DNA from: Reyranella sp. CPCC 100927
Lineage (GTDB): Bacteria; Pseudomonadota; Alphaproteobacteria; Reyranellales; Reyranellaceae
NCBI RefSeq assembly: GCF_007859315.1
Contig: NZ_VOHA01000010.1
Span: forward strand, 1 to 64,000
Direction: 5' to 3'
Length of the DNA stretch: 64,000 nt
The position numbers were made by a program, and so were the translations under genes. The notes under the pieces are model-generated. The model was not told the DNA's origin, ran no database searches, and saw only the letters and a program-made list of their open reading frames with translations. Positions 22,947 to 34,621 of this stretch are shown piece after piece (position 1 is the first letter of the stretch; each line of letters opens with the position of its first letter).

Positions 22947-24149
22947 ATGCAGCGTAGCGAAACGACGCCTGTTCAACGGTTACGGCGCCGCAGACTGCTC
23001 GGTGCCGCCGCCCTGGGCGTCGGCTGGGGTTTGCCCGCGCTGGTACGGGCGCAGGCGGCTCCCGCCTTCCGCCTGCCGCTGCTGGTCCCCCTGACCGGCT
23101 TCATTGCCCTGGAGGGCAAAAGCCAGCGCGACGGCGCGCTGTTGGCCTTGCGCGACGTCGGCGTCAAATTCGTTGTCGACGTGATCGACACGGGCAGCAG
23201 CCCCGAAGGCGCCGCAACCGCCTGGCAACGCGCGTTCCGCGACACCACGGTGCGTGACGGCGTGCGGCCGCCGGTCGCCGCGATGGGCCCGATTCTGGGT
23301 ACCCAGATGCTGGCGGTGCTGCCGCTGGCGGCCGAGGCAAAAGTACCGGTACTGGCGATCTCGGGCACGTCGCGCCTGTCGGAGATGGGCAATCCCTGGT
23401 TCTTCCGCTTCTTCCCCAGCGACGGCACGGTGAAGGTCGCGCACGCCAAGTACATCGCCGAGAAGACCGGTGCCCGGCGGCCGGCGGTGATCTACCAGAC
23501 CACGGCCTACGGCCAGTCGGGCCGCGAGCAGCTGGCACGGACGCTGGGCGAGCTCGGCATCAAGCCCGTGCTCGAGGAAGGCGTTGCGACGACCGTCAAC
23601 GACTTCGCGCCCATGATCGCGCGCGCCCAGGCGGCACAGGCCGACGCGCTGGTGCTGCACCTGCATTCGCAGTCGACGGCGCTCGCGGTGCGCCAGGCGC
23701 GGACCATGGCACCGTCGCTGCCCATCATCGCCGGCTCGGCGATGGCGCAGCCCGCGACCGCGGCGCTGCTGGAACCGGCCGAACTGAAGGACGTGTGCGC
23801 CGAGACGGCGGCGATGCCCAGCGCCGCTACCGACAACGACCGCATGCGCAAGTTCGTCGCTGCCTATCGCCGCGAATACCAGGCGGATCCCGATGCGTTC
23901 GCCGTTGCCGAGTACGACGCCGTGCGCATGCTGGGCGTCATGGTCGACGAGATCGTCAAAGCCAAGGGCGTCGATGCCGTGACGGGCGATGCGGTCCGCG
24001 CCCGCCTGTCCACGATGCGATGGCCGGGGCTCGCAACCGAGTATTGGTCCGACGGCAAGGGCAACATGGCGCACGAAGCGCTGATCGTCTGCTATGGCGG
24101 CACCGACCGCGTCCCTGCCATCAGGTCGAAGTACGTATTGCCGCCGTAG
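22947..24149 (+). CDS. Orphan LivK-type substrate-binding protein with Tat-like signal
   Basis: This 400-residue protein has a twin-arginine-like signal (RRRRLLGAAALGVGWGLPALVRAQA) and then a type I periplasmic-binding fold (LPLLVPLTGFIALEGKSQRDGALLAL; VPVLAISGTSRLSEMGNPWFFRFFPS). No permease or ATPase gene is adjacent, so it must use a transporter encoded elsewhere or act as a sensor ligand-binding protein. It follows the GGT-like gene by 43 bp, which suggests that the enzyme acts on the imported ligand. Confidence 0.85.
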   Translation: MQRSETTPVQRLRRRRLLGAAALGVGWGLPALVRAQAAPAFRLPLLVPLTGFIALEGKSQRDGALLALRDVGVKFVVDVIDTGSSPEGAATAWQRAFRDTTVRDGVRPPVAAMGPILGTQMLAVLPLAAEAKVPVLAISGTSRLSEMGNPWFFRFFPSDGTVKVAHAKYIAEKTGARRPAVIYQTTAYGQSGREQLARTLGELGIKPVLEEGVATTVNDFAPMIARAQAAQADALVLHLHSQSTALAVRQARTMAPSLPIIAGSAMAQPATAALLEPAELKDVCAETAAMPSAATDNDRMRKFVAAYRREYQADPDAFAVAEYDAVRMLGVMVDEIVKAKGVDAVTGDAVRARLSTMRWPGLATEYWSDGKGNMAHEALIVCYGGTDRVPAIRSKYVLPP

Positions 24150-24475: not shown

Positions 24476-26047
24476 ATGCTGCCAGCAACCTCCAGGCGCG
24501 TCATCGTTCTTGACCTGGTCACCAAGGGACCGGCCCGCAAGGCGTATGCGCGCGCGATCAATGCAGGCCTGGCGAGCGTCATGCCCCAGGTCGTGGCGGC
24601 CTGGTGCGAACAGGCGGGCCACCACGTCACCTATATTTGCTACACGGGTGTTGAGGACCTGACGCCGGAGACCATCGGCGACGCTGATGTGTTGTTCATC
24701 AACGCGTTTACCCGTTCGGCACTGACGGCCTACGCGGTCGCGAATTTCTTTCGCCAGCGCGGGACGGTGACCGTTCTCGGTGGCCCGCACGCACGCTGCT
24801 ACCCGGAGGATGCGGTCCGATATTTCGACTATGTGCTCGGTTTCACCGATCGCGACCTCGTTCTCGACGTTGTTACGCAGGGCAGTCGGCATCGCGAAGG
24901 ACTTGCACTGTCGGCCACGCGGCAGCTCAGTGATTTTCCGACGCTCGCCGAGCGCTGGCGCTTCGTTGATGCCGCACTGTCCAAGGCTGGCATCCTGAAA
25001 GTCGTGCCCATGATCGGATCGGTGGGTTGTCCATACACGTGCAGTTTCTGCATCGATTCGACGGTGGACTACCGCCCGTTGTCGCTGGACCGGATCACGG
25101 AAGACCTGCGGTTTGCGCTCACCAAGTTCAGGAACCCGCTCATCGGTTGGCATGATCCCAATTTCGGTATCCGCTTCAACGACTACATGGGGGCCATCGA
25201 GCGGGCCGTGCCGCGTGGGCGCCGCATGCGTCACGTCGCAGAGACGAGCCTCTCGCTTCTCGGGGAAGGCAACGTCAAGCGCCTGGCACGCAACGGTTTC
25301 GTCGGCCTGCTGCCCGGTATCGAGAGCTGGTACGAGCATGGCGCCAAATCGAAGACCGGCACCAGGACGGGCCTCGAGAAGGTCACCCAGGTTGCCGGTC
25401 ACATCAACATGATCCTGCGCCACGTCCCCTTCGTTCAGACCAATTTCGTCCTTGGCTTGGACAGCGATGAAGGCGACTCGCCGTTCGAGCTGACCAAGCG
25501 CTTCATCGATCTCGCACCGGGCGCCTACCCCGCTTTCTCACTCCTGACGGCGTACGGTCGTGCTGCACCGCTCAATCTGGAATTTCAGCGACAGCACCGG
25601 GTGCTGCCGTTTCCGTTCCATCTCCTCGACAGCAATCATGCGATGAACGTCCGGCCCAAGAACTACGACTGGGTCGACTTCTATACGCACGCCGTCGATC
25701 TGACCGGCTATGCCCTGACCGGACGCCGTGTGTGGCGACGACTGCTCGTCAACCGCGGCATCATTCCACGCTGGTTCGGATTCGTCCGCGCGATATCGTC
25801 GGGACGCACGCGTTACCAGGCGCGCATCCGAGATCTGTTGGTTCACGATCGCTCGATGCGGCGTTTCTTCGACGGCGAGACAAGCGAGCTCCCCGCCTAT
25901 CTCCATGCACGAATCAAACGACAGCTCGGGCCGCTCTGGCGCCATTTGCCGGACGATGCACTGATGCACGATCCCTATGCCTACCTGAAGGCAGAACAGA
26001 AAAAGGCAGCCGACGTATCAGCGCGGAGCCTGGCGGTCGCTGAGTAG
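24476..26047 (+). CDS. B12-binding-type radical SAM protein
   Basis: This 523-residue protein has an N-terminal cobalamin-binding-like Rossmann domain (about 1-140, with DADVLFINAFTR and VTVLGGPHARCYPEDA). A radical SAM domain follows with Cys185, Cys189 and Cys192 in GCPYTCSFC. No DxHxxG histidine is visible, so B12 would bind base-off or without His. The C-terminal third is unassigned. This architecture is used for methylations and rearrangements in lipid and natural-product synthesis. The ATG at 24476 has a GGAGG box. Its 3' end overlaps the convergent acyltransferase gene by 30 bp. Confidence 0.85.
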   Translation: MLPATSRRVIVLDLVTKGPARKAYARAINAGLASVMPQVVAAWCEQAGHHVTYICYTGVEDLTPETIGDADVLFINAFTRSALTAYAVANFFRQRGTVTVLGGPHARCYPEDAVRYFDYVLGFTDRDLVLDVVTQGSRHREGLALSATRQLSDFPTLAERWRFVDAALSKAGILKVVPMIGSVGCPYTCSFCIDSTVDYRPLSLDRITEDLRFALTKFRNPLIGWHDPNFGIRFNDYMGAIERAVPRGRRMRHVAETSLSLLGEGNVKRLARNGFVGLLPGIESWYEHGAKSKTGTRTGLEKVTQVAGHINMILRHVPFVQTNFVLGLDSDEGDSPFELTKRFIDLAPGAYPAFSLLTAYGRAAPLNLEFQRQHRVLPFPFHLLDSNHAMNVRPKNYDWVDFYTHAVDLTGYALTGRRVWRRLLVNRGIIPRWFGFVRAISSGRTRYQARIRDLLVHDRSMRRFFDGETSELPAYLHARIKRQLGPLWRHLPDDALMHDPYAYLKAEQKKAADVSARSLAVAE

Positions 26048-27160
26048 CGGCAAGCGCGCCAGGACAGGGTCGTGGCGATCGGCACGAAGGAAAACGGCGG
26101 CGAGGCGCAGCGCCGCGTGGATCGGCCCGTGGCGATGGCGGAAGAAGAGCCAGTTCGTTCCCAGGCTGCTGCCCAACCGCAGCTTGGGCCCATAGCAGGC
26201 CTGTCCGGCCACCAGCGCCCCGATCCCCTGCTCGATGCAGAAGCGGACGTTCGTCATCCAGCTCAGGAAGTACAGGTTGAAGCGCCGACCCTCGACGGCG
26301 TCCATGCAAAAGAACTTGTCGACCAGCTGTCGGCCGTCATGCAGCACCAGGTTGAACGCCAGCAGATCCTGACCATGCCAATAGAGAAAGCAGCTGGCCT
26401 GCCCGCCTGATCCCGCCAGCACGCCGCTGAAATAGCCGGGCGGCAGCGTCTCGAACCGCAGTTCACTGCGCGACTGCGTGCCGTGGTAGAGCGCCATCAC
26501 CCGCGGCAGCACGTCGTCGATCTGCGCGCGCCGCTCGATGGTGATCGCGGCGGCCGCCTTGAGTTTTCGCCGCATGTCCTTGCGCGTGGCCGCGCTCAGC
26601 GACGCAAGGTAGGCCTCGACCGTCGCATGGACGATGTCCAGGCGTGCCGTGGGCAATCCCGGCAGGCGCGCGAACCCCGCTGCCGCCACCGCCGCCCTCA
26701 ACGCCGCATTCTTCTCAGGGACGTCCTTGACAGCCACCAGACCGGCACCGTGCACTCGCGACAACTGCCGTAGCGCCCGCAGGATCATTGCCAGCACGAC
26801 GTCTCGGTCGGCGGCATCGAGACCCGGCGCGAGGCCGACCATGCACGACTCGGCCGCCGGTGATCCCAGGCAGGCCATATGGCACACCAGCAGCGACGGC
26901 AGCACACGGCTGACGGCTTCCGTCACGCGCTTCCAATACCCCTGCACGGTGGCATCGAGACGATAGGACGTCACGAACGCCGGCGCGAAACCCACCATGC
27001 GTTCGCCGTCGCGCACCACGATCCACAGCAACGCGAAGCCCGGTATGCCCGCGATTTCGACGGCGCGATGATAGTCATAGCCCTCGGTCTCGCCGGGCAG
27101 GAAGGCGTTCCACGCGGCGGCGCCGATCGTTTCGATCGAGGTGAGGACGACAGCGATCAT
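26018..27160 (-). CDS. BioF2/CelD-like GNAT acyltransferase
   Basis: This 380-residue protein matches the acetyltransferase-6 (BioF2-like/CelD) pattern: SLSAATRKDMRRKLKAAAA (about 187-205), then LYHGTQSRS, CFLYWHGQDLLAFNLVLHD and NLYFLSWMTNVRFCIEQGI. Family members transfer acyl or aminoacyl groups in polysaccharide, lipid or peptidoglycan assembly. No signal peptide is present. It is the last gene of the seven-gene minus-strand operon; its start overlaps the small transporter's stop by ATGA. Its final 30 bp overlap the radical SAM gene tail to tail. Confidence 0.77.
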   Translation of the reverse strand: MIAVVLTSIETIGAAAWNAFLPGETEGYDYHRAVEIAGIPGFALLWIVVRDGERMVGFAPAFVTSYRLDATVQGYWKRVTEAVSRVLPSLLVCHMACLGSPAAESCMVGLAPGLDAADRDVVLAMILRALRQLSRVHGAGLVAVKDVPEKNAALRAAVAAAGFARLPGLPTARLDIVHATVEAYLASLSAATRKDMRRKLKAAAAITIERRAQIDDVLPRVMALYHGTQSRSELRFETLPPGYFSGVLAGSGGQASCFLYWHGQDLLAFNLVLHDGRQLVDKFFCMDAVEGRRFNLYFLSWMTNVRFCIEQGIGALVAGQACYGPKLRLGSSLGTNWLFFRHRHGPIHAALRLAAVFLRADRHDPVLARLPLLSDRQAPR

Positions 27161-27564
27161 GTACCGTGCTCCCGGCCGGCGCCCTCGCTGGCCAGCAGCA
27201 CGACGCCTGCGCCGATCACCGCAACGCCCAGGCAGCGGATCAGACCGACCGTTTCACCCAGCCAGACGGCCGACGCCGCCAGTACGGTCACATACGCGAC
27301 CGCGGTCAGCGGAAACGCGCGGCTGACGTCGCTGTCGCGCAGCAGCGTCATCCAGGCCAGGAACGACAGGAAGTAACACAGGAAACCCAGAACAACCGGC
27401 GGCGACGACACGGCGGCCACCAGCCACCGGCCGATGCCGCCCACACCCTGCAGATGATCGCTGCCAGCCTTGAGGAACACCTGCGAGGCGGTCTCGAAGA
27501 CCACCAACAGGATCCAGCCCAGCCATGCATGGATGCCGGTGCGAACAGCGGGCGTCTCGATCAT
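27157..27564 (-). CDS. Small DMT/SMR-family transporter (first of two)
   Basis: This 135-residue protein has about four membrane helices, including WLGWILLVVFETASQVFLKAGS, PPVVLGFLCYFLSFLAWMTLL, VAYVTVLAASAVWLGE and CLGVAVIGAGVVLL. This is the size and pattern of EmrE/ArnE-type half transporters. FETASQVFLKAGSDH matches the conserved first helix with a buried Glu. A second small transporter lies two genes upstream, so the two probably form a heterodimer. It starts 1 bp after the hydrolase stop. Confidence 0.8.
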   Translation of the reverse strand: MIETPAVRTGIHAWLGWILLVVFETASQVFLKAGSDHLQGVGGIGRWLVAAVSSPPVVLGFLCYFLSFLAWMTLLRDSDVSRAFPLTAVAYVTVLAASAVWLGETVGLIRCLGVAVIGAGVVLLASEGAGREHGT

Positions 27565-27565
27565 G

Positions 27566-28426
27566 CTACGCGCCGCGCGGCTGGTCGAAGATCGGACGGC
27601 CGGCGATAGGCGGTAGCGGCAAGGAGCGGAAGAAGGCGGCCGTCTGCTGCGCCACCTCCTCGCGCTGCTGGTCGATCGTGATCATGTGATAGCAATCGTC
27701 GAGCAGGATCTGCCGCACGGGGCCAGACAGTCGCCTGGCGACATAGTCGGCATTGCGCGGCGATGTCATGTCGTCGTCGCGGGCATGCACGATCAGGGTT
27801 GGCGTGGTGATCAGCGGCAGGTCGCGCTTGACGCGCGCGATCAACTGCCGCAGTTCGATCAAGCTGGCGCCGGGCGTGGCGGAAAATCCGGCAGCGGCGC
27901 TGTCGCCGCGCGACATGCGCGTGACGATGATGTCGCGCAGGCGCGCATCCTTGATGCCGAACGGGTATGCTTCCACGAAACGATAGCGGCGCGCGAACGG
28001 CGATTTGAGGATCAGCGGCAACAGGAAGCGCAAGCGCGGGATGCTCCAGCCGTCGTAGAACAATGTCGTGGAGTAGAGCGCCGTGCCGGACACCAGATGG
28101 CGGCACTTGAGCGCCAGGCGCAGCGACAGCAGGGCGCCCATCGACAATCCGCCGACGAACACACGCCGTGCGCTGGCGTGCAGCCGCACCAGGGCCTCCT
28201 CGACGCCGTCGTACCAGTCGCGCCATCCGGTGCGAACCAGTTCGGCCTCGCTGCGGCAATGGCCACGCAAGCGCGGCACCCACACGGTGAACCCGTCGGC
28301 GTTGAGCCGCCGCGCCACGAAGCGCATCTCGGTCGGCGTTCCCGTCAGGCCATGGATCAGCAGTACCGCATCGGGGCCGCCCCTGAGGTAGATGCCCTCG
28401 CCGGCGGCGCTCAACCTGATCGTCAC
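27566..28426 (-). CDS. Serine alpha/beta hydrolase (carboxylesterase Est30-like)
   Basis: This 286-residue protein has LLIHGLTGTPTEMRFVARRL (22-41), the elbow GLSMG with Ser95, an acidic patch ARDDDMTSP (Asp218/219) and His247 in CYHMITID. The pattern resembles monoacylglycerol lipase/carboxylesterase Est30. It could be a thioesterase releasing a product from a carrier. The GTG at 28426 overlaps the upstream transporter stop by GTGA; the longer open frame is rejected because its added part is antisense-like. Confidence 0.83.
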   Translation of the reverse strand: MTIRLSAAGEGIYLRGGPDAVLLIHGLTGTPTEMRFVARRLNADGFTVWVPRLRGHCRSEAELVRTGWRDWYDGVEEALVRLHASARRVFVGGLSMGALLSLRLALKCRHLVSGTALYSTTLFYDGWSIPRLRFLLPLILKSPFARRYRFVEAYPFGIKDARLRDIIVTRMSRGDSAAAGFSATPGASLIELRQLIARVKRDLPLITTPTLIVHARDDDMTSPRNADYVARRLSGPVRQILLDDCYHMITIDQQREEVAQQTAAFFRSLPLPPIAGRPIFDQPRGA

Positions 28427-28794
28427 GAAACGCCTCCGAAGGATACGACGGCGACACCCAGCGTGATCAGGACGGTTCCGAGCCATCGCCGTGGTGTCAC
28501 CCGCTCGCCCAGCACCAGCCAGCCGGCCAGCGCGACGCCGCAGTAGCTGAGACTGGCCAGCGGAAAGAGCAGGCTGAGCGGCGCGTGCTGCAGCGCCGCC
28601 AACCACAGCACAGCCTCCAAGGCATAGGCCAGCACGCCGACGGCGATCGCCGGCGACAAGGCGATGGCCAAAAAGAACGGCAGGCCCTGCGGTGCCGGCA
28701 CCGGCAGGCGCAGGAGACCGACTTTGAACAGGAGCTGGCCGACTACATCGAGCACGACAGTGGCCAGGAACAGGCCAATCGCCAGGCCGCTCAT
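28423..28794 (-). CDS. Small DMT/SMR-family transporter (second of two)
   Basis: This 123-residue protein has about four membrane segments: AIGLFLATVVLDVVGQLLFKVG, LAIALSPAIAVGVLAYALEAVLWLAAL, SLLFPLASLSYCGVALAGWLVLGE and WLGTVLITLGVAVV. It resembles EamA/ArnF half-size carriers. The start at 28794 overlaps the arginase-fold gene by ATGA. It is only loosely similar to the first small transporter, which fits an asymmetric pair such as ArnE/ArnF rather than a recent duplicate. Confidence 0.8.
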   Translation of the reverse strand: MSGLAIGLFLATVVLDVVGQLLFKVGLLRLPVPAPQGLPFFLAIALSPAIAVGVLAYALEAVLWLAALQHAPLSLLFPLASLSYCGVALAGWLVLGERVTPRRWLGTVLITLGVAVVSFGGVS

Positions 28795-29705
28795 GCCGCA
28801 ACCGCCGACAGCAACGCCAACAGCGCCGCGTTGGTACGCGCGTTCACGGCGATCTCGCGCGAGCCCGCGTCGCGCGGCTGGTCGGTCCATGACTCGAAGC
28901 GCTTGCGCAGGTTGCGATGGCGGATCGGCGCGTACTCGCCGCACACATCGACGCCCAGCACCCGCCGCCGGTCGACCAGCGCCTCGATCGCCAGCATGAG
29001 GGCCGACAAGGGCATCGCGCCCTGATCCCAGTTGGTCGTCGCGTCCTGCTGGCAGAGCACGTCCTTGTCGATGGTGATCCAGATCGACTCGGTCGGAATG
29101 CGCGTGCACAGCTCGGCAACGAAGGCGCTCCAATCCTCGCCGACACAGCGCCACGCAATGCGGCCGCCGGCAACGCGATGCCCCGGGCCATCATCGAAGG
29201 TGCCGATGATGCGCGATGGCGCGTGCCGCCATGGATAGAGTTCCAGCCGACCGCGGCGCAGCGCCGCCAGGTTGGCGCCCTTGAACTGCGGCCAATCGAG
29301 ATCGTCGCTGCACGGGCCGATGGTCACGATCCGCACGACATGCGGCAGTTCCAGGGCCCGGTTCACCCACGACCCGCAGTGCCAGCGCGGCGCGAAGCGC
29401 ACCCAGTCCGGGTGATTGTCGAAGTGCACCACGGTGAACGGCCGCGCCGCCGTCGCCATCAGCGGTACGGTCAGGTGATGGAAATCACCCGACCCGATGA
29501 ATGTAACGGCAGAGCCGCGGCCGCCATCACACAAGGCATCGCGAACCCGGTGCTCGAAACCCAGCATCGCCGACTCGTCGGTCCATAGCCGCAGCCGCGG
29601 CCCCAGATCGCCGGCCGCGATCCAGCCGCCGTCACGGCGGGCGGCATCGACCACGGCCGGCTGGACGGCAAGGCTGCCATCGAGATCGATCGCCTGTACG
29701 CGCAT
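28791..29705 (-). CDS. Arginase/ureohydrolase-fold hydrolase
   Basis: This 304-residue protein has the binuclear metal-site motifs of the ureohydrolase fold: GSGDFHH (71-77), DNHPD (Asp96, His98, Asp100) and TIDKD (Asp213, Asp215). The usual GGDHS, DAHxD and SFDxDxxDP are each recognisably altered, so this is a divergent member. Ureohydrolases cleave guanidino or formimino groups from arginine, agmatine and related amines. It lies 6 bp after the aminotransferase gene, suggesting guanidino or amine chemistry. Confidence 0.83.
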   Translation of the reverse strand: MRVQAIDLDGSLAVQPAVVDAARRDGGWIAAGDLGPRLRLWTDESAMLGFEHRVRDALCDGGRGSAVTFIGSGDFHHLTVPLMATAARPFTVVHFDNHPDWVRFAPRWHCGSWVNRALELPHVVRIVTIGPCSDDLDWPQFKGANLAALRRGRLELYPWRHAPSRIIGTFDDGPGHRVAGGRIAWRCVGEDWSAFVAELCTRIPTESIWITIDKDVLCQQDATTNWDQGAMPLSALMLAIEALVDRRRVLGVDVCGEYAPIRHRNLRKRFESWTDQPRDAGSREIAVNARTNAALLALLSAVAA

Positions 29706-29711
29706 CGCCGA

Positions 29712-31157
29712 TCAGCGACGCAACGCGCGGGCCACGACCTGATCGAGCAGCGCGATGGCAAGATCGATCTCCTCGCGCGTGATCTCCAGGCTCGGCGCCA
29801 GCGTCACCACGTTCTTGTAGTAACCGCCGATATCGAGAACCAGGCCATAGCGGCGATCGCCGACCTGCAGGTCGCCCTTCATGCCCTCGTCCACCATCCG
29901 GTCGACCAGTGCCTTGTCTGGTGTGAACCCGTCGGCGCCGCACATCTCCATGCGCAGCGCGAGGCCCATGCCATCGACGTCGCCGATCTCGGGGTACTTA
30001 CGCTTCAGCTCGCGCAGCCCGGCCAGGAAGTAAGCGCCCTTGGCGAAGGTCAGCGTTTCATAGTCCTTCTCGTCGCACAGGCGCAGCGTCTCCAGCCCCA
30101 CTGCCGTGCCCATCGGATTGGCATTGAACGTCGAGTGGGTCGAGCCGACCGGGAACGTTGCCGGGTCGATCAGTGCCTCGCGCGCCCACAGGCCGGACAG
30201 CGGGTTGAGGCCGTTGGTCAACGCCTTGCCGAAGACGATGATGTCGGGCTTGACGTTGAAATTCTCGATCGCCCACAGCCTGCCGGCGCGGTAGAAGCCC
30301 ATCTGGATCTCGTCGTCGACCAGCAGGATCTTGCGCGCCTCCAGCACCGCCTTCAGCTTCTCGAAGTAACCCGGCGGCGGCACGACATAGCCGCCGGTGC
30401 CCTGGATCGGTTCGATATAGAAGGCGGCGTATTCGGCCTGGCCGACCTTGGGATCCCACACGCCGTAATATTCCGAATCGAACAGGCGGGTGAACTGATC
30501 GACGCAGTAGAGACCGCAATCCTGGCGCTGCTTGCCGTAGGGGCAGCGGAAGCAATAGGGAAACGGCACGAACTGCGCCCGATCACCGAAGTGGCCGTAG
30601 CGGCGACGATAACGATAGGACGACGTGATCGACGAGGCGCCGAGCGTACGGCCATGATAGCCACCCTCGAAGGCGAACATCAGGCTCTTGCCGCCCGACG
30701 CGTTGCGCACGATCTTCAAGGAGTCCTCGACCGCCTGCGCGCCGCCGACGTTGAAGTGGACGCGGCCTTTGAGGCCGAAGCGATCCTGCACGCCGACCGC
30801 GATCGTCCTGGCCAGTTCGATCTTCTCGCGATGCAGATACTGAGACGCCACCTGCGGCAGCACGTCGAGCTGCCGGCGCACGGCCTCGTTCAAGCGCTCG
30901 TTGCGGTAGCCGAAGTTGACCGCCGAATACCACATCTGCAGATCGAGATAAGTGCGGCCGGCGGCATCGTACATGAACGATCCGTGGCAACGCTCGAAGA
31001 GCTTCGGCGGATCGACATAGTGCACGGTATCGCCATGCGAGCACCACAGGGCCTCGTCCGCCAGCAACGCGGCCTCATCGTCGATCGGTTGCGACCGAGG
31101 CGCGACAGCACTCTCGTCGCCCGCCAGGAACTGGCGCAGCGGCGCTACGTCATTCAT
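29712..31157 (-). CDS. Class III PLP-dependent aminotransferase
   Basis: This 481-residue aminotransferase has the PLP lysine Lys311 (IIVFGKALTNGL), the cofactor Asp in LLVDDEIQMGFYR (Asp281 or Asp282) and EGGYHGRTLG. A four-cysteine segment, PYCFRCPYGKQRQDCGLYC (Cys202, 205, 214, 218), may bind metal or an Fe-S centre; similar cysteine inserts occur in other class III enzymes. The ATG at 31157 has a GGAG box 6 bases upstream. The amine acceptor and donor are unknown. Confidence 0.9.
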   Translation of the reverse strand: MNDVAPLRQFLAGDESAVAPRSQPIDDEAALLADEALWCSHGDTVHYVDPPKLFERCHGSFMYDAAGRTYLDLQMWYSAVNFGYRNERLNEAVRRQLDVLPQVASQYLHREKIELARTIAVGVQDRFGLKGRVHFNVGGAQAVEDSLKIVRNASGGKSLMFAFEGGYHGRTLGASSITSSYRYRRRYGHFGDRAQFVPFPYCFRCPYGKQRQDCGLYCVDQFTRLFDSEYYGVWDPKVGQAEYAAFYIEPIQGTGGYVVPPPGYFEKLKAVLEARKILLVDDEIQMGFYRAGRLWAIENFNVKPDIIVFGKALTNGLNPLSGLWAREALIDPATFPVGSTHSTFNANPMGTAVGLETLRLCDEKDYETLTFAKGAYFLAGLRELKRKYPEIGDVDGMGLALRMEMCGADGFTPDKALVDRMVDEGMKGDLQVGDRRYGLVLDIGGYYKNVVTLAPSLEITREEIDLAIALLDQVVARALRR

Positions 31158-31186
31158 CAAACTCTCCACGCGTTGAAATTCTGTCG

Positions 31187-31852
31187 TCAGGCCACTTCGG
31201 CGAGGCGGCCGGTCAGTTTGGCGAAGGCGAGGCGCGCGGCCGTGAAGTCGGGAACGTCGACCGCCGGCCACCCCTGCTCGCGGGCCTTCGCGAGCAATGC
31301 GCCACGCGCGAACACAAGGTCGGCCGCCTCGCCCAGGCAGAAGTCGGAGCGGCCATCACCGATCAGCAGCGTGCGGTGACGGCCGGCGGCCAGGCGCGCG
31401 GCCTGATTGCATTTGCACACCCCGCTGCGCGCCTTGCAGGTCGCGGCGACAGCATACGGCACCGCCATGGTGTAGGTTCCATCACCGCCGGGCACCAGCT
31501 GGTTGGCGATCACCACAAGGCCGTCGATACCGTGGCGCGCCAGGATCCGTTGGATGACGTAGTCGAGGCCGTCGCTCACGACCGCAATGGGCATGCCGGC
31601 ACGCCGGCAATCGTCGACGAAAGCGGGAAACTGCGGGTCGATATCGATCGTGTCGAGAAAGGCGTCGAGATCCGCCGATGTCGCCCGGATCATCGCCACC
31701 TGCAGGCGCATGCACCGCAGGGCGCTGATCCGACCGTGCTTCCATGCTTCCTCTACGAACTGCCACGCCGGATCCGCGAACTGATCCAGCACGCGGTCGG
31801 TGACATCGAACGGCACGATCGTGCCGTCGAAATCACAAACGATCGTCCACAT
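31187..31852 (-). CDS. HAD-superfamily phosphatase (MtnX/SerB-like)
   Basis: This 221-residue protein has the HAD nucleophile motif CDFDGT with Asp7 and Asp9, a middle VVSDGLDYVI and the late motif IGDGRSDFC. The arrangement is that of subfamily IB phosphatases such as MtnX and phosphoserine phosphatase. A CKARSGVCKCNQ segment gives an unusual cysteine cluster. The ATG at 31852 has an AGGAGAG box. It heads the operon, 29 bp before the aminotransferase, and probably removes a phosphate from a precursor. Confidence 0.85.
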   Translation of the reverse strand: MWTIVCDFDGTIVPFDVTDRVLDQFADPAWQFVEEAWKHGRISALRCMRLQVAMIRATSADLDAFLDTIDIDPQFPAFVDDCRRAGMPIAVVSDGLDYVIQRILARHGIDGLVVIANQLVPGGDGTYTMAVPYAVAATCKARSGVCKCNQAARLAAGRHRTLLIGDGRSDFCLGEAADLVFARGALLAKAREQGWPAVDVPDFTAARLAFAKLTGRLAEVA

Positions 31853-32046
31853 CCAGGACTCTCCTTGCTGCGCCGGACATGGCGCCACACCGACACGGCG
31901 CATACGCCGCGCGTGTGATCCGACCCTGACGATGGGATGACTCCGACCTGACGATCACGAGCAACACCCGCGTCACCATCGAACACGGGTGCGAGCATCT
32001 GCTCGCAAGATTACGTCAACATGATCGGCATTTGTTCACGATGACT

Positions 32047-32233
32047 CCCCTCTCCGCCCACGAAGTGGGGGGAGAGGGAGGGGCCCACGCGCAGCGTGGG
32101 AGGGTGAGGTGGGTGGTCGGAACACATGCGATGTTTCCAACGAGACCATGTGCGTCTTCAACACCCACCTCACCCTCCCATCGCTGACGCGATGGGCCCC
32201 TCCCTCTCCCCCCACTTCGTGGGCGGAGAGGGG
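32047..32233. repeat. Long inverted repeat, each arm with internal hairpins
   Basis: Arms at 32047-32115 and 32162-32233 are near-perfect reverse complements around a 46-bp loop. Both arms keep the mini-hairpin CCCACGAAGTGGG. They differ at a second mini-hairpin: CCCACGC-GCA-GCGTGGG at 32084-32100 against CCCATCGC-TGAC-GCGATGGG at 32177-32196. Pairing is kept despite the changed bases. This looks like two copies of a palindromic dispersed element in opposite orientation. It lies between the HAD-phosphatase operon promoter and the end of the ycjF-like gene and could also act as a terminator. Confidence 0.75.
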
Positions 32234-32243
32234 GGCGTCGACC

Positions 32244-33233
32244 TCATGCGTTCATCAATGTGCCCAGCAGGCTCTTGCGTTCATCGGGCTCGAACGACAG
32301 CGGCCGACAGACCTCCATCGCGCGCATGCCGAAGCGCAATGCGCGCAAACCGACGATCGACCCTTCCGCGACCTTGCCCGCGATCTTGTCGGCGAAACCG
32401 CCGCCCAACGCCTCTGCCAGCATGTCGCCCGCCGGATCGGCGGCCATCGCCGTGGCAGTACTGATCACGGCCGCGCGCGCCAGGCGCGTGGTGGCAAGGC
32501 CGCTGGGGCGCAAGCCGTAGATCTCCGCCACGCGGCGAACCATCGCCACACTGCGCCAGGCGACGATGACGGCATCCAGCGCCGGGTGCGGACTCGCCGC
32601 GGCAGCGCCCAGCGTCACCAGCATCTCGCGGCGTATGGCACGGCGCGCCTCCTGGTCGAGCGGCGCCAGCACGACGGCGCGGAATTGCCGCACGATGGCG
32701 TCGCTGTCGCTTTGACCATCGATGCGGTGATGAAACTGCTGCACGAGTTCCGGACGGCGCGACGCCACCATGGTGAGCACCGGCGTCAGGGCCGACATGA
32801 GCTCGCCGGGCGCATCGCGGCGCAAGGCCGCCTCCAGCTTCGCACGCAGGCGCGTCGCATCCTGCAGGCGGCGCAGCGCGCGGAACTCATGCAGCAGGGC
32901 TGCCGTGAGCGCGCCCAGAAATCCCAGCGACAATGCGCCCAGGGCTGCGCCGCCGATCCAGTCGCGCTGCCAGATGTCGACGAGACCGTCCACCAGGCTG
33001 TAGACGGAAAATCCCGCGACCATCGCAGCCAGCGACCAGGCAGCCACGCCCCAGTACGACGTGCGCGCCGGCGCGGCCACCACCACCTCGGCCGTGTCCA
33101 CCGGTTCGATCGGCGCATCGACCCGTCCGGGAACCACGCTCGTCCGACTTGATGCCGGTGCGTCTTCGATCGGGACGATCAGATCGGGTGCTACCGGCCC
33201 GGGTGCGTCCGTCACGACACGAGGGGTGTTCAT
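32244..33233 (-). CDS. ycjF: YcjF-like membrane protein (TIGR01620)
   Basis: This 329-residue protein has two membrane segments (about 60-110), a charged helical middle and a C-terminal domain with RPSGLATTRLARAAVISTATAMAAD and RFGMRAMEVCRPLSF. These are characteristic of the YcjF/TIGR01620 family. It is always linked to YcjX, as here with an ATGA overlap. The pair is associated with envelope stress (phage-shock regulon in enterobacteria); the biochemical role is unknown. Confidence 0.87.
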   Translation of the reverse strand: MNTPRVVTDAPGPVAPDLIVPIEDAPASSRTSVVPGRVDAPIEPVDTAEVVVAAPARTSYWGVAAWSLAAMVAGFSVYSLVDGLVDIWQRDWIGGAALGALSLGFLGALTAALLHEFRALRRLQDATRLRAKLEAALRRDAPGELMSALTPVLTMVASRRPELVQQFHHRIDGQSDSDAIVRQFRAVVLAPLDQEARRAIRREMLVTLGAAAASPHPALDAVIVAWRSVAMVRRVAEIYGLRPSGLATTRLARAAVISTATAMAADPAGDMLAEALGGGFADKIAGKVAEGSIVGLRALRFGMRAMEVCRPLSFEPDERKSLLGTLMNA

Positions 33234-34621
33234 GCGAGATAGTCCCCGAGCAGATAGTTGAGCGCGTCGGGCAAGCCGATGTTCGGAAAGCCACCGTACC
33301 GCCATCCAGGATCGGGGCGTGGCTGGAAATCCCAGAAGCGATACCTGAAGGCGTTCCAGGGCGGCGGATAGTCGAGCGGCACCGCGCCGGGATCGAAGGC
33401 AGCCGTGGCATCATCGGCGCGGGCCTCGCCCTGCAGCACCTCGCGGCCGGTGTCGCGGCGAACCACATCGGTGGTACAGCGCACGGCGGCCAGCACGCCC
33501 ACCGATATGCCCGCGGCCGCCTTGATGCGGTTGCTTTCGTCGAGCACGTTCAGCATGCGTCGGGTCAGGTTCTCCAGATGGAGCCGATCGCCGCGCACCA
33601 CATGGTCGGCCTTGGTGGCGGCGAACAGCACCCGGTCGATCTTGTGCCCGGTCAGCCAGCGCATCGGCCCGGCCTTGCCATGATCGAAGTTTTGCAGGAT
33701 CGCCGCCAGCGCCACGCTCATGTCGTCGAACACCTCGGCGCCGTCATTGAGCGCGGTCAGCACATCGACCAGCACGATCTGGCGGTCGATCCCCGCCAGG
33801 TGCTGCCGATAGAACGCGCGGATGACGTTGTCCTGGTAGTCGCGAAATTTCCCGGCAAATGCCGCCTGCAGACTGCCGGAGGCCGGCGCCGTCGCGAGCT
33901 GGGGCAGCGGGCAGAAGCGGAGCACCGGAGCGCCCCGCAACTCGGCTGGCGTCAGAAGCCGTCCCGGCTGCAGGAAACGGAGCCCCTTGTCCGCACACCG
34001 TTGCAGATAATCGGCATAAAGCGCCGCCGCGCGCCCCGCCCACTCCTCATCGTGCGGCTGGTCGGGGCGCCGGTCCGATACAAAAGCCAGCCAGTCGCGC
34101 GCCAGGTCACCGCGCGATCCCGCCTGTGCCTGGCGGATCATGGCCGCCGACCATGCCTCGAAACTCTGCTCGAGCATGGGCAGGTCGACCAGCCATTCGC
34201 CGGGGTAGTCGACGATATCGAGCTGCAGGGTCGCGTCGGTGAGACCGAGCCAGCGGGCGACCGTGCCGACGACCCCGCTGCCGCGCCGGTAGTTGATATC
34301 AAGGCGCAGGCGCGAGATGCCGTCCGTCGGCGTCGGCCACTCGGGCTTCTGCCCTGTCAGTGCATCAATCGCCTGGGTGTAGGGGAACTGCGGCACCGTG
34401 GCATGGATGTCGTTGCGCAGCACTGCGGCCACCAATCGGCCCTCGTCGAAGAGCTCAAAATTGCGCAACGGGCTGCGTGCGGCCACTGCATCCGCACGCA
34501 ACAAGTTATGGACCAGCGACGTGATGAAAACGGTCTTGCCCGCCCGGCGTAAGCCAGTCACCCCCAGGTGCACGCGCGTGGCGAGGAGGTCGTCCACTTT
34601 CTTGAGAAGAAAATCGTCCAC
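33230..34621 (-). CDS. ycjX: YcjX-like P-loop NTPase (DUF463)
   Basis: This 463-residue protein has the P-loop GLRRAGKT (23-30) followed by VFITSLVHNLL, the LQLDIVDYPGEWLVDLPML segment (Walker B/switch-like) and FAATKADHV, similar to a GTPase base-recognition motif. This order is typical of YcjX, a GTP-binding stress protein. It overlaps the ycjF-like gene. The 296-bp region upstream is AT-rich and divergent from pyrE. Confidence 0.9.
   Translation of the reverse strand: MDDFLLKKVDDLLATRVHLGVTGLRRAGKTVFITSLVHNLLRADAVAARSPLRNFELFDEGRLVAAVLRNDIHATVPQFPYTQAIDALTGQKPEWPTPTDGISRLRLDINYRRGSGVVGTVARWLGLTDATLQLDIVDYPGEWLVDLPMLEQSFEAWSAAMIRQAQAGSRGDLARDWLAFVSDRRPDQPHDEEWAGRAAALYADYLQRCADKGLRFLQPGRLLTPAELRGAPVLRFCPLPQLATAPASGSLQAAFAGKFRDYQDNVIRAFYRQHLAGIDRQIVLVDVLTALNDGAEVFDDMSVALAAILQNFDHGKAGPMRWLTGHKIDRVLFAATKADHVVRGDRLHLENLTRRMLNVLDESNRIKAAAGISVGVLAAVRCTTDVVRRDTGREVLQGEARADDATAAFDPGAVPLDYPPPWNAFRYRFWDFQPRPDPGWRYGGFPNIGLPDALNYLLGDYLA

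Follow-up and report, generated by a model that had tools for sequence, protein, structure and literature searches.

We analyzed a 64,000-nucleotide stretch of the 9.08 Mb genome of Reyranella sp. CPCC 100927 (contig NZ_VOHA01000010.1, positions 1 to 64,000; hereafter the window), and the data support that seven closely packed minus-strand genes in it form one conserved cassette of the biosynthesis-plus-export type. As to the product, we give about even chances to the idea that the genes form a mobile operon, conserved and spread by horizontal transfer, which makes an amine-containing lipid of the membrane or envelope, or a lipid-anchored group, and has its own flippase. Each of the seven genes has an uninterrupted reading frame and a start codon, and in the order HAD, AT3, ARG, SMR1, ABH, SMR2, GNAT they are spaced by +29, +6, -4, -4, +1 and -4 bp. 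Coordinates and spacings thus bear out the short gaps and overlaps described in the original prediction, which had been made from the DNA letters alone, and Pfam agrees with its motif-based family calls for the seven genes; the matches of an adjoining gene assigned to the radical SAM and B12-binding families stay below cut-off. The genes are:

HAD: 31187..31852, minus strand; MtnX-like HAD-IB phosphatase, 221 amino acids (PF12710, 2e-16; TIGR01489, 95.2 bits, cut-off 81.55)
AT3: 29712..31157, minus strand; class III pyridoxal phosphate (PLP) enzyme, 481 amino acids (Aminotran_3 PF00202, 6.9e-68)
ARG: 28791..29705, minus strand; arginase-fold (ureohydrolase superfamily) metalloenzyme, 304 amino acids (Pfam Arginase, 2.2e-6)
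SMR1: 28423..28794, minus strand; half-size EamA/SMR transporter, 123 amino acids, predicted N-out (PF00892, 1.4e-9)
ABH: 27566..28426, minus strand; alpha/beta hydrolase-fold enzyme, 286 amino acids, GTG start (Hydrolase_4 PF12146, 7e-22)
SMR2: 27157..27564, minus strand; half-size EamA/SMR transporter, 135 amino acids, predicted N-in (PF00892, 4.8e-8)
GNAT: 26018..27160, minus strand; tandem GNAT / FemAB-like (BioF2-like) acyltransferase, 380 amino acids (Acetyltransf_6, 7.6e-5)

The gene set recurs in other genomes

Searching a genome collection with ARG yielded 94 relatives; the best 80 of them served as loci (L005-L084), and gene presence at these loci was determined by tblastn (E 1e-4). 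ARG co-occurs with GNAT at 73 of the 80 loci, with ABH at 72, SMR1 at 69, SMR2 at 67, AT3 at 60 and HAD at 59, eight of the 60 AT3 matches being distant (24-27% identical). Among the 60 loci that extend at least 4 kb upstream and at least 5 kb downstream of ARG, 59 have GNAT and 54 have at least two SMR genes, while HAD is present at 53 and a class III PLP gene at 52, on either strand. The nearest named ARG record is from Vineibacter terrae, with an arginase-fold protein that is 79% identical, and hosts of the cassette include Bosea, Rhizobium, Mesorhizobium, Labrys, Caulobacter, Xanthobacter, Pseudomonas and Rhodanobacteraceae. Moreover, the pairwise distances of HAD, AT3, ARG, ABH and GNAT correlate (Mantel r 0.83-0.955), with 0 of 500 permutations reaching the observed value in each of the ten protein pairs; proteins of at most 80% or at least 130% of the length of the window protein, and AT3 matches below 300 bits, were left out.

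The probability that unrelated genes were merely packed together by chance is practically nil. As the gene set recurs at 80 other loci, it is more than a chance arrangement, and the counts refute this explanation together with the pairing of unlinked members within a genome, the correlated divergence and the shared promoter type (see below). The original prediction had asked if homologues of the genes never co-occur; they do at 80 loci, so that its view of a single biosynthesis-plus-export cassette stands. We found no description of this gene set or of such a lipid in the open-licence literature, most subscription papers being outside the search.

Genes that moved out of the cassette are still retained in the genome. 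At eight loci (L011, L012, L034, L038, L040, L042, L045 and L060) the class III gene is a distant one, and seven of these eight genes encode glutamate-1-semialdehyde aminomutase-like motifs, which were not found by pattern in L038. The L034 enzyme, the sole one scanned, scores 441.9 bits on PRK00062 (cut-off 398) and 426.7 bits on HemL (cut-off 527). At L026, L028, L029 and L031 ARG and GNAT are the only members found, and a fatty acid desaturase gene adjoins them on the opposite strand in all four cases. The genomes of these four loci and of L015 each hold an adjacent pair of HAD and aminomutase-like genes elsewhere (5/5), which in the L031 genome is also surrounded by ABH, SMR, acyl carrier protein and ketoacyl synthase genes. 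In the genome of L043 HAD adjoins an AT3-type gene, and in V. terrae, where AT3 is missing between HAD and ARG, an AT3 orthologue (81%) is located on another contig beside a second HAD gene.

A sigma-54 site precedes the cassette in many relatives

Promoters were compared at 77 of the 80 loci, the three that lacked a usable first gene or usable sequence ahead of it being left out. Loci with a full-length NtrC-type regulator (profile score above 300 bits) were classified as NtrC-linked (30/77), and a sigma-54 site was defined as TGGC-N7-TTGC no more than 150 bp ahead of the first gene, the background being 0.0098 per 150 bp. Such a site is present at 25 of the 30 NtrC-linked loci, 48-93 bp upstream of the first gene, versus none of the 47 others (Fisher 1.2e-15, a P value that is too small because the loci are related). 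In the NtrC-linked loci no sigma-54 site was found for the genes of MipA (0/26), the kinase (0/39) or the cyclopropane fatty acid (CFA) synthase (0/4); the desaturase gene has one near its start or upstream in two of four cases (L007, L012), with the L007 site falling on the predicted start. For the relatives, this association of the first gene with NtrC-linked sigma-54 sites strongly suggests that the genes function as a unit.

The cassette is patchily distributed and partly plasmid-borne

In a set of 101 genomes (the window's own and its relatives) ARG occurs in three, all within the window's genus. Across the class it matches seven of 385 genomes at E 1e-3: strongly in the own genome, G325 and G372, as a decayed copy in G235 (E 1.4e-12), and with 19-20 bits in the remaining three. 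GNAT lies at most 5 kb from ARG in the own genome, G325, G372 and G235 (4/4). The G235 copy (L125) is a fragmented cassette with pieces of ARG, ABH, GNAT, HAD and AT3, and hence a sign of loss. GNAT itself matches 88 of the 385 genomes at E 1e-3, six of them below 1e-50. These six include three extra genomes. In G401 the match sits at a contig end, in G104 no other member was detected by the profiles used, and in G414 (L123:8065-11431) the GNAT relative adjoins an SMR gene, ARG is absent, and a different class III gene follows farther along; GNAT and SMR are perhaps an older two-gene core.

Among 72,556 plasmid records, ARG has a match in 47; in 40 of these the match covers 80% or more of its length, and 17 are typed conjugative. 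A conserved gene set, a sigma-54 switch linked to it in many hosts and conjugative plasmids together point to a real metabolite. A scan of viral contigs gave one 26% match. On a plasmid from a Bartonella bat isolate (L180:7231-13280) AT3, GNAT and a divergent ARG occur with an adjoining MBOAT O-acyltransferase gene, and HAD, ABH and SMR have no match in the 20.6 kb of this plasmid stretch.

ARG has a ureohydrolase-type metal site

The predicted metal ligands of ARG (H76, D96, H98, D100, D213 and D215) are present in all 80 aligned sequences and align with H126, D149, H151, D153, D230 and D232 of E. coli SpeB. Structure matches show a ureohydrolase fold. ARG thus shares the fold and six metal ligands with arginase, agmatinase, guanidinase and formimidoylglutamase, but differs from these enzymes in a region H/N-C-G-x-W around the catalytic His, with C, G and W being invariant in the 80 sequences, in an N-W-D-Q-G motif after the last ligands (D in 79/80), and in its identity of 10-20% to solved ureohydrolases. 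Position 109 is H in 52 and N in 28 of the 80 sequences, and SpeB H163 aligns with the invariant C110; position 257 is always acidic (D in 53, E in 27), and SpeB E274 aligns with the neighbouring G256 instead. No NCBIfam model matches ARG at E 0.01. A role as deacetylase was rejected, as no HDAC-type chain was among the best 50 matches, although this is not proof. The metal site supports the earlier proposal that the pathway handles a guanidino or amine group, at the level of predicted ligands.

The same site fits a turnover and export system for guanidines or polyamines, in which ARG would cleave a soluble guanidino compound, the SMR pair would export the cation, and acyltransferase and PLP enzyme would detoxify, SMR heterodimers being known cation exporters. 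We regard this as very unlikely given that ARG has no NCBIfam assignment and is so distant from solved ureohydrolases, and that ARG and GNAT repeatedly have fatty acid genes next to them, also at loci that lack a linked SMR gene.

AT3 lacks residues of glutamate-dependent transaminases

AT3 keeps the Schiff-base lysine K311 and the PLP aspartate D282 in 49/49 sequences (window included) and shares both with class III transaminases that use glutamate/2-oxoglutarate. In E. coli GabT this co-substrate is served by Arg398 and Glu211, but Thr452 and Thr254 replace this pair in 49/49 AT3 sequences, and the three relatives in the PDB whose alignment reaches the Arg398-equivalent position keep Arg. 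The amination step of the original prediction is therefore doubtful. Its proposal that the set makes a phosphorylated precursor was not borne out and is disfavoured because the family of the HAD protein comprises phosphatases.

ABH has a predicted nucleophile at position 95 (Ser in 55 and Cys in 16 of 71 sequences, Ser in the window), with D218, D219 and H247 being present in 71/71. GNAT has a tandem GNAT fold, which is common to FemX, MprF and N-myristoyltransferase, and matches FemAB_like/Acetyltransf_6. Its profile gave matches in the PDB only at E 0.1 or worse, and single-sequence PDB searches with ARG and GNAT yielded nothing useful. A second GNAT-like match in Caulobacter was too weak to use.

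SMR1 and SMR2 look like an antiparallel pair

The charge bias (K+R) of SMR1, determined by a crude hydropathy method, is N-out in 65/65 sequences (window included), whereas SMR2 is N-in in 50 of 58, N-out in three and zero in five. Opposite orientations are the signature of an antiparallel pair, which SMR1 and SMR2 look like by this predicted topology. The best NCBIfam match of both proteins is ArnF (48.1 and 50.5 bits, cut-off 99); on ArnE they score 23.2 and 40.3 bits (cut-off 92).

Further exporter genes accompany some relatives, as the 80 loci include a DevC-like permease at 12, a membrane fusion protein at nine and a TolC-type protein at 11. In Caulobacter and Xanthobacter the cassette is accompanied by ABC permease, fusion and TolC-type genes, and on the A. 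tumefaciens plasmid pAt-B441 such genes follow it; they also precede HAD-PLP pairs in other genomes, such as Rhodanobacteraceae. In NCBIfam the ATPase matches DevA best and the permease DevC, and the best matches of the fusion protein include DevB, which relates them to DevBCA-TolC; all scores are below cut-off (217/296, 62/290 and 54/129 bits), and the genes belong to other lineages only, outside the window cassette. This linkage, found in several lineages, would suit a small secreted amphiphile, i.e. an acylated amino acid or amine with surfactant- or siderophore-like properties that is exported by the SMR proteins and elsewhere by ABC-TolC, and the best fold matches of GNAT include aminoacyl-tRNA-dependent peptide synthases solved with streptothrisamine. 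With exporter genes confined to the loci counted above, and with acyl-chain genes of membrane-lipid type (CFA synthase and desaturase) recurring at others, we consider a secreted product somewhat unlikely.

Fatty acid and envelope genes adjoin the cassette in relatives

The 80 loci include a desaturase gene at 27 (median distance 191 bp from ARG), a FabF-like ketoacyl synthase at 21, an acyl carrier protein at 20, a CFA synthase at 14 and MipA/OmpV at 36. In A. fabrum 2788 the order is response regulator, histidine kinase, HAD, AT3, ARG, EamA, desaturase, hydrolase, GNAT, EamA and CFA synthase, with MipA/OmpV, EptA and DgkA next after the cassette. DegT-family aminotransferase genes (52% identical) lie beside the SMR pair at L176:4327-7818 and L179:11008-13008 (Roseomonas mucosa and X. 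sacchari), and a third is near SMR genes in L056. These fatty acid genes in some relatives and the transporter topology give additional backing to the predicted acylation and export, which themselves stay conjectural.

The envelope genes could also indicate an amine modification of lipid A or of an undecaprenyl-linked carrier, similar to the arn system and directed against cationic peptides. Like the cassette, the Arn system combines a half-size SMR pair (ArnE/ArnF) with amine-handling enzymes, and a two-component link exists in the cassette's relatives; ArnF as best match, the DegT-family genes, the genes following the A. fabrum 2788 cassette and the frequency of MipA all agree with such a function. 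However, EptA and DgkA match in one and DegT in three of 91 scanned stretches (80 of them the ARG loci), MipA has no sigma-54 site and is not in the window, and the ArnF match is below cut-off. The seven genes include no glycosyltransferase, and a ureohydrolase-fold enzyme and a tandem GNAT set the cassette apart from Arn, with the linked acyl carrier protein and ketoacyl synthase genes of relatives being left unexplained. A lipid A modification thus seems unlikely.

Comparison with known aminolipid pathways

According to those passages of PMC11087976 that concern it, the bacterial sphingolipid acyltransferase is cytoplasmic, has no predicted transmembrane segments and acylates the amine before membrane crossing. 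The sphingolipid pathway (Spt, bCerS, CerR) as outlined there follows a logic like that proposed for the cassette, with the amine being acylated before the lipid crosses the membrane, but the cassette has class III PLP and ureohydrolase-fold enzymes. No serine palmitoyltransferase was among the examined families that recur in at least six of 76 clustered loci; the scans covered part of these families, and no search of whole genomes for the enzyme was made. Ornithine and other amino acid lipids (OlsB/OlsA/OlsI) would share the logic of N-acyl and O-acyl transfer onto an amine, yet the score of ABH against the OlsI model is 19.2 bits (cut-off 385), and GNAT has its matches in FemAB_like/Acetyltransf_6.

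Neighbouring genes in the window

On the other side of GNAT a plus-strand gene converges on the cassette with an overlap of 30 bp:

24476..26047, plus strand; radical SAM gene with B12-binding domain (Radical_SAM 28.8 bits, cut-off 29.5; B12-binding 25.4 bits, cut-off 32.1; both below the Pfam cut-offs)

The original prediction had included it in the pathway. It matches at 0 of the 80 loci (tblastn, E 1e-4) and is missing at the same place in V. terrae, which rules it out as a pathway member. At L005 (V. terrae) and L006, GNAT is followed by the orthologue of the binding-protein gene that lies at 22947-24149 in the window, with no radical SAM match between the two. G001, whose contig corresponds to the V. 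terrae record, has no match to the radical SAM gene, and a search of 60 relatives gave 27% identity at best (E 7.6e-11). Its third-position GC of 0.754 differs from that of the cassette (0.824-0.875), but the contrast is weak because a flanking gene has 0.794. We regard this gene as a neighbour outside the cassette and a separate arrival.

Upstream of HAD an inverted repeat with perfect 41-nucleotide arms spans 32040-32233. It resembles miniature inverted-repeat transposable elements, and at least 20 further oppositely oriented pairs exist elsewhere in the genome (40 of 84 candidates scored). Between cassette and a pyrE-like gene two genes encoding 353 and 463 amino acids, which we take to be YcjF/YcjX-like, occupy 32244-34621. 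Neither is matched in the V. terrae locus at E 1e-10; the nearest gene matched there beyond the cassette is the pyrE-like one. A scan of the cassette region for sigma-70 promoters found none, which is weak evidence in a GC-rich genome.

Discussion

For an amine-containing lipid we propose a pathway in which HAD would dephosphorylate a small phosphorylated precursor, and AT3, or an aminomutase-like substitute in some lineages, would place or move its amino group. The tandem GNAT may acylate that amine or move an acyl or aminoacyl group onto a lipid, ARG, as a binuclear-metal enzyme of ureohydrolase type, might strip a guanidino- or amidino-like group and so uncover an amine, and ABH would add or remove an ester acyl chain. 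The lipid would be made at the inner face of the membrane and flipped outward by an antiparallel SMR1/SMR2 heterodimer, and some hosts would pass it on to the outer membrane. In some relatives the linked desaturase, ketoacyl synthase, acyl carrier protein and cyclopropane synthase could tailor the acyl chain.

Several observations weigh against a lipid product. We infer its lipid nature, the substrates and the order of steps from a set in which no enzyme has an established substrate; SMR pairs also export soluble cations and FemX-like folds also transfer amino acids. Acyl-chain genes are found in a minority of loci, their counts having no background rate, and the loci are mutually related so that no count is independent. 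Profiles for desaturase, ketoacyl synthase, acyl carrier protein, CFA synthase, MipA, kinase and NtrC find no match in the window, a single desaturase probe gave no match in the genome that contains the window, and no sigma-54 site lies within 400 bp of the HAD start. Finally, no flippase gene is linked at the four loci with only ARG and GNAT, two of which are short contigs (13.1 and 4.2 kb).

A more specific and more tentative version of the aminolipid proposal, which we rate as possible rather than probable, is a new class of outer-envelope aminolipid. Here a guanidino- or amidino-masked amine would be uncovered by a dedicated ureohydrolase, the PLP enzyme would be of the aminomutase or lyase type and not a transaminase, and the plasmid-carried genes would include their own antiparallel SMR flippase and respond, in many hosts, to a sigma-54 two-component switch.

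Tractable hosts of the cassette, Pseudomonas putida and Rhizobium among them, provide defined genes to delete, and the linked NtrC offers a means of induction. If the product is a lipid, many bacteria of soil, plants and skin would have an additional amine lipid in their envelope.

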